Below, one piece after another: positions 2,606-4,836 of a stretch of DNA of 35,824 bases; within the stretch, counting starts at the first letter, position 1; each line of letters opens with the position of its first letter. This DNA comes from Betaproteobacteria bacterium (GTDB lineage Bacteria; Pseudomonadota; Gammaproteobacteria; Burkholderiales; SG8-39). The notes beneath the pieces were generated by a model. That model had not been told where the DNA came from and searched no databases. It saw nothing but the letters and a program-made list of their open reading frames with translations. The DNA lies in contig VBCH01000001.1 in the NCBI GenBank assembly GCA_005884455.1, positions 1 to 35,824 on the forward strand, given 5' to 3'. A program made the position numbers and the translations under genes.

Positions 2606-3174
2606 GCCGCCTCCCGTTGCAGGAAATTTTTCAAGAGCGCGTGCCCATGCTCGGTGAGAAAGGACTCCGGGTGGAACTGCACGCCCTCCACGGCGAACTC
2701 GCGGTGGCGCACGCCCATGATCTCGCCGTCTTCGGATTCCGCCGTGATCTCCAGGCACTTTGGCAGGGTCGCCCGGCGAATCGCGAGCGAATGATAGCGG
2801 GTCGCCACGAAGGGACTCGGCAGTCCGCGAAACACCCCGAGGCCCGAATGGCTGATCGCCGAGGTTTTCCCGTGCACGACCTTGCCCGCATGCACGACCT
2901 CGCCGCCGAAAGCCTGGCCGATCGCCTGATGACCGAGGCACACGCCCAGTATCGGGACCCGGCCCGCAAACTCGCGTACGGCAGCGAGCGAGATCCCCGC
3001 TTCAGCGGGAGTGCAGGGCCCCGGTGAGATGACGATGCCTCTCGGCTTCATCGCGGCGATGTCCGCCGCCGCGATCTCATCGTTGCGAAACACTCTGACG
3101 TCCGCGCCCAACTCGCCCAGATACTGCACCAGATTCCAGGTGAAGGAATCGTAGTTGTCGATCATCAGGATCAT
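2602..3174 (-). CDS. trpG: Anthranilate synthase glutamine amidotransferase subunit
   Basis: Class I glutamine amidotransferase that feeds ammonia to TrpE. It is 190 residues from ATG 3172-3174, which overlaps the trpE stop as ATGA; the family start [14 protein letters not shown] fits exactly. The catalytic triad is visible as Cys79 in GVCLGHQ, with His168 and Glu170 in GVQFHPES. Other signatures are ISPGPCTP at 49-56 and the RYHSL segment at 126-130. In many proteobacteria the same protein also serves p-aminobenzoate synthesis as PabA. No pabB is seen here, so a dual role is possible but not shown. Confidence 0.96.
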
Positions 3175-4646
3175 GCCCGCCGGTCCATTCCGTTCGAAGC
3201 GATCTCCGCAGCGCACAGCACGGCCCGCGCCTTGGCACGGGTTTCCTGCAATTCGCTTTCGGGCACCGAGTCGGCGACGATCCCGGCACCCGCCTGCACG
3301 TGCATCTGGCCGCCTTTCACAACAGCCGTGCGGATCGCAATCGCCAGGTCCATATCACCGTTGAATCCCAGATAGCCTGCGGCACCCGCGTAGACGCCCC
3401 GCTTGTCCGGCTCGAGCTCATCGATGATCTCCATGGCACGTACCTTGGGCGCGCCGCTCACCGTTCCCGCGGGAAATGCCGCGCGGAACACGTCGAGGCA
3501 ATCCAGCCCGTCCCGCAGCCTTCCTTCCACGTTCGACACGATGTGCATCACGTGCGAGTAGCGTTCGACTGTCATCGTTTCGGTGAGCCGGACCGTTCCC
3601 GTCGCGGCTACGCGCCCGACGTCGTTGCGGCCGAGGTCGGCCAACATCACGTGCTCCGCACGCTCCTTCGGATCAGCGAGCAACTCGCGCTCCAGCGCGA
3701 CGTCCTCGTCTTGTGTCGCCCCGCGGCGGCGCGTTCCGGCGATCGGGCGCACCGTAACCGTACCACGCTCCAGACGCACCAGGATTTCGGGTGAGGCGCT
3801 TACCACCTGGAAGTCGCCGAAATCGAAATAGAACATGTACGGCGACGGATTGATCGAGCGCAAAGCCCGATACAGGGACAGCGAGGAGCCGGCAAACGGA
3901 CGCGACAACCGCTGGGACAGCACGACCTGCATGATGTCGCCGTCGTGAACGTACCGGATTGCGCGGTCGACCGCAGCGCGGAAGCTGCCCGCGTCGAAAT
4001 TCGATGCGACCTCCATTTCCGCGTCACGCGTCTCGGAAGGCGGTGACAAAGGCAATCTAAGCGCGCCCAGCAGTTCGCGCAGACGCGCTTGGGCGTCCTG
4101 CCATGCGCGCGGCTTGGTCGGGTCGGCATAGACGACGAGGTAGAGCTTGCCCGAAAGATTGTCTATGACCGCAAGCTCTTCGGACACCAGCAGCAGCATG
4201 TCCGGACAACCAAGCGCATCGGGCTTGAGCCATCCTCCGGCGAGTCGCGGCTCGATCCACCGCACCGTGTCGTAGCCGAAGTATCCGACAAGGCCCCCGC
4301 AGAACCGGGGCAGGCCGGGGAGTTCCGCGACGCGGTAGCGCGAAAGAAATTCGCGCACGAAGACGAGCGGATCGGCCGTCTGGGACTTCTCCACGATAAC
4401 GTCTCCATGCATCACCGTCACCAGGCTCCCGACGGCCCGCAGCCTCACCGGGGCTGCCAGTCCAATGAACGAATAACGCCCGAAGCGCTCTCCGCCCACC
4501 ACGGACTCGAGCAGATAGGTGTTGGAGCGATTGGCAAGCTTCAGGTAAAGCGATAGCGGCGTTTCGAGATCGGCGAAGGTCTCCGCGAGGAGCGGAACGC
4601 GGTTAAAACCCTGTGCGGCAAGCCGCTGGAATTCTGCTTCGGTCAT
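3171..4646 (-). CDS. trpE: Anthranilate synthase component I
   Basis: Chorismate-binding subunit that makes anthranilate from chorismate and ammonia; the first committed step to tryptophan. The 491 residues are the normal length. LLES at 45-48 is the N-terminal tryptophan-binding (feedback inhibition) motif. The C-terminal half carries the chorismate-enzyme signatures [41 protein letters not shown] and [12 protein letters not shown]. The start at ATG 4644-4646 is preceded by GGAG with 5 nt spacing. It is the first gene of the trpE-G-D-C operon. Upstream lie a promoter and a leader frame rich in Trp codons, and the GGAG site can pair with the start of that leader, so expression is likely tuned by tryptophan supply. 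Confidence 0.97.
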
Positions 4647-4650
4647 GACT

Positions 4651-4772
4651 GCTCCACGAAAACGTTGCGGGGTACTGCGGGGCGCGCGGGGCGCGCGAGC
4701 GACTGCAGACTAGCTGCGCCACCAGCGCCAACTGTGCGATTGCACCCGTTTCCCGTCGTTTTCGAAGAGCAC
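4651..4772 (-). promoter_or_regulatory. Putative trp leader control region with long-range pairing onto the trpE ribosome-binding site
   Basis: Between the likely transcription start (about 4802) and trpE lie a Trp-rich leader frame, a tandem 9-bp repeat (GGGGCGCGC on the plus strand at 4679-4687 and 4688-4696) that folds as a GCGCGC/GCGCGC hairpin, and two distant complementary arms. Arm 1 (4770-4752, the beginning of the leader frame) pairs with arm 2 (4671-4651): GCTC with GAGC, CGAAAACG with CGTTTTCG (8 bp), CGGG with CCCG. The only interruptions are a T-G wobble, a T-T mismatch and a 1x3 internal loop. Arm 2 includes most of the trpE GGAG site. The Trp-codon segment contains GGCGC twice and could pair with the GCGCC repeats instead of their own hairpin. 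A T run follows the hairpin only about 20 nt later, so a classic terminator is not obvious; control of trpE translation is the simpler reading. The complementarity is direct observation; the mechanism is inference. Confidence 0.6.
4710..4772 (-). CDS. trpL: trp leader peptide, 20 codons with three Trp codons before the stop
   Basis: From GTG 4770-4772 the frame reads MLFENDGKRVQSHSWRWWRS and stops at TAG 4710-4712. Trp is codon 15, 17 and 18, so three of the last six codons are Trp, in a window where Trp is rare. The position (40-odd nt upstream of the trpE start region and about 30 nt after the likely transcription start) and the codon pattern are those of proteobacterial trp attenuator peptides. 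The start is uncertain: no strong Shine-Dalgarno precedes GTG 4772. The GTG at 4743-4745, preceded by CGGGAA, would give an 11-residue peptide with the same Trp codons. It probably acts through ribosome stalling when charged tRNA-Trp is short, not through the peptide itself. Confidence 0.7.
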   Translation of the reverse strand: MLFENDGKRVQSHSWRWWRS

Positions 4773-4808: not shown

Positions 4809-4836
4809 TCTATAACACCCCTGCGCGGCTTGTCCA
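4809..4836 (-). promoter_or_regulatory. Likely trp operon promoter
   Basis: On the minus strand TGGACA (4836-4831) and TATAGA (4814-4809) are 16 nt apart, a good sigma70-type pair. Transcription would begin near 4802, about 30 nt before the leader frame and about 155 nt before trpE. No TrpR-like operator was recognised over the -10. Confidence 0.5.

Follow-up and report, generated by a model that had tools for sequence, protein, structure and literature searches.

A tryptophan-rich leader upstream of trpE in a betaproteobacterial genome, complementary at its start to the trpE ribosome-binding site, as a candidate translational attenuator

A short tryptophan-rich reading frame upstream of trpE in this betaproteobacterial genome is best read as a cis-acting, Trp-sensing leader that controls trpE translation, in other words a translational trp attenuator, and we assign this reading a probability of roughly 0.7. 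Comparison among relatives shows a leader with a conserved Trp-containing tail and a predicted pairing between two arms: the 5′ end of the leader, at its start codon (arm A), and the trpE ribosome-binding site with its GGAG (arm D), to which arm A is antisense. With ample Trp, ribosomes would complete the 20 codons and depart, arm A would pair with arm D, and trpE would be little translated, as would the operon behind it, probably by polarity. With scarce charged tRNA-Trp, ribosomes would halt at the Trp codons near the leader end and a following ribosome would be held on the leader start, so that arm A would be occupied, arm D free and trpE translated. We infer that the leader is transcribed and translated, that ribosomes stall and queue on it, and that the switch runs in this direction. 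The original prediction had left the output step open; the evidence set out here points to translation of trpE and not to a classical transcription terminator.

The leader frame (MLFENDGKRVQSHSWRWWRS) lies on the minus strand at 4710-4772 and, as originally predicted, reads 20 codons from a GTG start (4772-4770) to a TAG stop (4712-4710) ahead of trpE. Directly before the stop, at 4713-4730 of the same strand, stands the putative sensor Trp-Arg-Trp-Trp-Arg-Ser, with Trp codons at 4730-4728, 4724-4722 and 4721-4719. The claim that three Trp within four codons are unlikely to occur by chance held up in the window (the whole 35,824-nt stretch of DNA analysed), where a scan of all six frames for WWW, WW.W or W.WW found a single place, the leader itself. 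The inner GTG at 4745 that had been pointed out as another start is also present, giving an 11-codon version, but the outer GTG is judged from related sequences to be the better start because three relatives (L005, L006 and L008) keep a start codon there, ATG in L005 and GTG in the other two, and have no in-frame start at the inner position. By eye, no obvious Shine-Dalgarno sequence for the leader itself was found at the focal locus.

The promoter-like pair proposed ahead of the leader is likewise present on the minus strand, with a -35-like box TGGACA (4831-4836) and, across a spacer of 16, a -10-like box TATAGA (4809-4814). The boxes are largely kept in four other members of the genus (L002, L003, L004 and L070): the first is identical in all four, and the second is identical in three and reads AATAGA in L003. 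These four genomes keep the leader and both arms of the pairing as well as the -35 box, and conservation upstream of that box is far weaker. Across the 162 loci used for the pairing test described below, -10-like hexamers are enriched 40-79 nt before the leader start, and because they concentrate there, transcription probably starts upstream of the leader. Downstream, trpE (anthranilate synthase component I, 491 aa, Pfam PF00425 and PF04715) occupies 3171-4646 of the minus strand with its ATG at 4646, and trpG, trpD and trpC come next (PF00117, PF00591 and PF00218, respectively). On the other side, an FAD-linked oxidase gene (PF02913, PF01565; 4904-6310, minus strand) lies between rpe and the trp leader, and in several relatives the upstream sequence instead resembles, by eye, the final portion of a gph-type phosphatase gene. 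Pfam and NCBIfam profiles placed the focal peptide and those of three relatives in 0 families, very short peptides being hard for profiles. Looking by pattern for a further leader of this type in the genome was uninformative, with 51 places matched by the pattern and 64 by its reversed form.

For comparison we assembled 252 trpE upstream regions. Of these, 172 come from genomes of the focal genus, family and order; the other 80 are named loci that include a few from gammaproteobacteria, and the two sets may share species. Throughout the counts, the order is GTDB Burkholderiales and the class GTDB Gammaproteobacteria, the former being placed by GTDB, as we take it, inside the latter. TrpE-profile matches with names were mostly betaproteobacterial (Zoogloea, Nitrosomonas, Massilia, Vogesella and others). 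The best candidate leader carried at least two Trp among its last 14 residues in 168 of the 252 regions, one in 46 and none in 38. Under a stricter rule, a Trp leader was found in 161 of 248 regions (each of at least 400 nt), compared with 7 of 248 for a control stretch further upstream that was treated alike and 0-4 of 248 in five shuffles.

The interpretation of the frame as a Trp-sensing leader was supported by comparison of relatives, the check that had been proposed for it, in which the Trp codons and stop are kept and the rest drifts. In the same-family sample (40 loci fetched out of 52 genomes with a trpE match), 33 loci retain the two-Trp tail; among these, Trp occupies codon -3 in 31 and codon -6 in 31, Arg occupies codon -2 in 31, and no residue reaches a majority at codons -12 to -10. 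L004 (SWRWRRS) and L067 (AAWISGRRWRR) have two Trp each with a spacing outside the search pattern, the genus member L004 having lost one Trp relative to the focal leader; L042 (SWRR) and L063 (SWRS) have one Trp each in an SWR-type tail, and no leader was found at the same-family loci L045, L052 and L065. The tail reads SWRxWR[SRP] in the focal family, AWPWRPWR in Accumulibacter (L097, L110), EAWLWRRWQSW in Collimonas and Massilia (L120, L132) and SWRWQR in Vogesella (L116). We also noted a leader tail of the same style, SWRWRH, at gammaproteobacterial trpE loci of Microbulbifer (L159, L161, L172).

At the focal locus, arm A (TGCTCTTCGAAAACG; 4757-4771, minus strand) overlaps the start codon of the leader together with the codons that follow and is identical in L002, L003, L004 and L070, and arm D (CGTTTTCGTGGAGCA; 4650-4664, minus strand) includes the trpE Shine-Dalgarno sequence GGAG (4655-4652). 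Fourteen of the 15 positions are paired in the predicted duplex, one of them as G-U, and the remaining position is a T-T mismatch; the predicted fold of the leader likewise joins the leader start to the trpE ribosome-binding site. As the whole 162-nt focal fold was unremarkable when compared with shuffles (z -1.17, with 26 of 200 shuffles folding as well), we used a pairing test across lineages. The same layout recurs with other letters at L009 (CGCTCTTCGGG/CCCGAAGAGCG), L195 (CCCGGATCCTGAA/TTCAGGATCCGGG) and L220 (TGCATTTACCTT/AAGGTAAATGCA).

The pairing test covered 162 of the 252 loci, including those that had suggested the idea, and 90 were dropped. Inclusion called for two Trp and WR in the last 14 residues, a leader stop at least 35 nt before trpE, and enough upstream sequence with no N. 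Arm A consisted of the 60 nt preceding the first Trp codon, and arm D of the 40 nt ahead of trpE together with the trpE start codon, and each own A:D duplex was compared with those formed with A and D of unlike genomes after correction for row and column means. Own duplexes had an energy of -25.8 kcal/mol versus -19.0 kcal/mol for foreign ones (permutation z -22.5, 0 of 5000), and the own pair fell within the best 1, 5 and 10% of foreign pairs at 52, 79 and 98 of the 162 loci, respectively, lying outside the best 5% at 83; the focal pair stands at the 0.3 percentile. Leaving out the trpE ATG hardly altered the result (z -21.1), thinning to 93 dissimilar loci left 48 in the best 5%, and ungapped helices scoring at least 26 were found in 32 of 162 own pairs compared with 368 of 25,374 foreign pairs. 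By raw energy, arm A beat the upstream region as a partner of arm D at only 87 of 162 loci, a comparison that looked poor until the foreign-pair test showed this upstream control (130-190 nt before the first Trp codon) to be flat across the 162 loci (z +0.9). An earlier duplex test with wider windows on 51 loci, in which the own pair ranked best in its row for 8 of 51 and in its column for 7 of 51, was superseded by the row- and column-corrected test; its weak ranks probably arose because duplex energy tracks GC content.

Pairing above chance was not confined to the last 40 nt before trpE, for at the 62 loci with long spacers arm A also paired with positions -80..-41 (z -3.3, compared with z -6.8 for the last 40 nt). 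The stretch of Trp codons paired with the spacer above shuffles too, more weakly than A with D (mean z -0.73 versus -1.36). The comparison shows predicted A:D complementarity maintained lineage by lineage with differing letters, and leader sequence is predicted by this complementarity to mask the trpE ribosome-binding site. As a separate observation, the A:D helix of L021 (genome G073) is a 27-nt perfect pairing built of CACAGAG-type repeats. One arm lies 44-18 nt ahead of the first Trp codon and the other 35-9 nt ahead of trpE, and the two look as though a repeat element had supplied both.

One subclade, with the tail W[RHCQ]SWRxWRR, keeps the Trp codons and lacks own-specific A:D pairing at seven of its eight loci (percentiles 0.2-0.97), the seven (L055, L057, L058, L064, L066, L068 and L069) all belonging to the focal family. 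A longer partner region brought no gain for the group of 8 loci (percentiles 0.17-0.83), with L064 as an exception (percentile 0.03 with -80..-41), and since the loci of this subclade are too alike, they yield no valid z.

Outside the order and within the same class, the layout was noticed in L275-L303, after which the test was fixed in advance and 60 more loci were fetched. Under the looser rule applied there, by which one Trp with WR suffices, a leader was found at 40 of 88 loci, 30 of which have two Trp, compared with 2 of 87 for the control stretch. The A:D test gave z -12.8 for these loci, with an upstream control that was not flat (z -2.3, 52 of 5000). For the 31 leader-bearing loci among the 60 freshly fetched, A:D gave z -11.5 (0 of 5000), and 20 of the 31 own pairs were in the best 5%.

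Among the alternatives, classical transcription attenuation, in which the Trp leader governs an intrinsic terminator before trpE as in E. coli, has a sensor half identical in kind. A hairpin-plus-T-run scan that detects the E. coli trp terminator found none between the focal leader stop and trpE, an interval that includes the GC-rich spacer from the stop to arm D (4665-4709, minus strand). Over all 162 loci the scan was positive at 16, compared with approximately 5.6 expected from shuffles, and the positives comprised 8 of 12 Oxalobacteraceae/Alcaligenaceae-type leaders, a group drawn up after the positives were known, versus 8 of 150 other loci. The expectation that loci with terminators would lack A:D pairing was unsupported (median percentile 0.07 for Oxalobacteraceae-type loci versus 0.047, Mann-Whitney p 0.25). 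An Rfam scan of the window returned only a tRNA, with no match to RF00513 (Trp_leader) at the gathering score, and with filters stricter than usual RF00513 exceeded its cut-off in E. coli and in 0 of 100 genomes of the order; weaker matches in 11 of those 100 lay away from trpE in the eight for which its place was listed. Because no terminator was found and RF00513 was unmatched, the focal leader is probably not a classical transcription attenuator. Such an attenuator would also leave the A:D pairing unexplained, and we consider it unlikely here even though the Oxalobacteraceae/Alcaligenaceae-type loci count in its favour.

Those eight loci (L121, L131, L132, L134, L148, L153, L156 and L160), from Oxalobacteraceae, Polynucleobacter, an Alcaligenaceae bacterium and an unnamed beta proteobacterium, carry Trp leaders followed by terminator-like hairpins, and apparently combine the same Trp sensor with a classical output.

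Polarity of untranslated mRNA is well established, and a second explanation, which we hold to be just as improbable, follows from it: the leader would set trpE translation, Rho would end the untranslated mRNA, and regulation would show up mostly in mRNA level. Both sequestration by A:D and the absence of a terminator fit this account, but Rho-dependent polarity alone has no need for A:D to include the trpE Shine-Dalgarno sequence.

How a translating ribosome would act on the pairing was approached with a folding model in which assumed ribosome footprints were masked and the cost of opening the trpE start region was computed for the 162 loci. At these loci the median distance is 33 nt from the leader start to the first Trp codon (5-95%: 18-57) and 74.5 nt from the leader stop to trpE, and at the 32 strong-helix loci the arm begins a median of 3 nt downstream of the closest in-frame start codon. 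The modelled median opening cost was 15.7 kcal/mol for the free leader and 15.4 when a ribosome stood at the leader stop; it came to 13.0 for a ribosome stalled on the first Trp codon, 9.0 for a stalled plus an initiating ribosome and 9.4 for an initiating ribosome alone, and the cost dropped by more than 2 at 129 of the 162 loci with stalled plus initiating ribosomes, at 64 with a stalled ribosome alone and at 24 with a ribosome at the stop. The corresponding focal costs in the model were 19.4 kcal/mol free, 19.4 at the stop, 19.7 stalled and 7.5 stalled plus initiating. As a stalled ribosome alone changes nothing there and the cost falls to 7.5 once an initiating ribosome is added, the focal geometry would call for a queue; with the assumed footprints, a second ribosome would fit on the leader start behind the stalled one and would keep arm A occupied. 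Elsewhere a single stalled ribosome lowers the cost strongly in the model (24.5 to 13.7 at L195, 20.7 to 11.8 at L186).

Because an initiating ribosome alone is predicted to open the focal site equally (7.5 kcal/mol), Trp dependence would rest on queueing. The same modelled values, together with the median of 9.4 kcal/mol over the 162 loci, speak for constitutive translational coupling, whereby translation of the leader opens trpE and the Trp codons are of little weight. We rate this as less probable again than the two preceding explanations, for Trp codons kept beside the stop in many families would then serve no purpose. That the frame is a chance ORF without function, as its shortness, GTG start and lack of an obvious Shine-Dalgarno sequence might suggest, is extremely improbable in light of the leader counts (161 versus 7 of 248 in the control) and the Trp at -3 and -6 (31 of 33 each).

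Trp leaders and translational attenuators are both known kinds of element; what appears to be new, among the literature matches listed, is a trpE leader with its own start antisense to the ribosome-binding site of trpE, an arrangement kept across lineages. None of the open-licence matches listed, judged by titles and abstract starts, described this leader or, for these bacteria, a Trp leader that controls trpE at translation, and a Bordetella sRNA paper concerns another locus in its accessible part (PMC11722255). The general idea is already in print, as an excerpt of one paper credits attenuation by overlap with the ribosome-binding site to Lopatovskaya 2010 (PMC4833913), and another, in the section available, holds that Rfam attenuator motifs may have arisen in gammaproteobacteria with very few horizontal transfers (PMC3766115). 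Judging from our comparisons, a translational form of trp attenuation built on two simple arms seems to be common among betaproteobacteria and to extend into other gammaproteobacterial orders, and Rfam's model missed betaproteobacterial trp leaders in the 100 genomes examined. We regard as evenly balanced the broader proposition of a translational trp attenuator widespread in beta- and gammaproteobacteria, in which the leader and trpE start sites mask each other, a ribosome queue is the switch, the arms are rewritten by lineage, and Oxalobacteraceae-type leaders add a terminator. If true, one sensor peptide would be joined to different output devices, the ribosome-queue mechanism would be directly testable, and there would be a rule by which to look for leaders of this sort at operons for other amino acids.

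Trp-leader attenuation is textbook transcription control, and E. coli trpL (RF00513; K-12 sequence) resembles the focal leader in being a short peptide with adjacent Trp codons near its end, encoded before trpE. The two differ in that E. coli has a terminator hairpin and U tract between leader and trpE, where none was found at the focal locus, and in that the focal leader start is predicted to pair with the trpE ribosome-binding site. A further parallel is rtpLP, the Bacillus subtilis at operon leader, where Trp codons within a leader peptide determine how the following gene is translated; this Firmicutes system differs in its target, controlling anti-TRAP and not trpE. The leader of ermC, another translational attenuator, has a multi-hairpin layout, and trpL of Sinorhizobium meliloti presumably has three adjacent Trp codons. 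The latter is alike in that a leader peptide, peTrpL, is encoded by the trp attenuator, and this peptide also acts in trans, according to the accessible text (PMC7298713). Actinobacterial trp attenuators encode leader peptides with double or triple UGG before trp genes and differ in having GC-rich terminators followed by poly-U, as an excerpt of the source describes them (PMC1262725). In erm attenuators, as outlined in part of a further paper, a ribosome stalled on the leader destabilises an inhibitory stem-loop and the next gene is thereby activated (PMC5118997). The erm signal is a macrolide, whereas at the focal locus the signal would be charged tRNA-Trp and the leader start itself would serve as the antisense arm.
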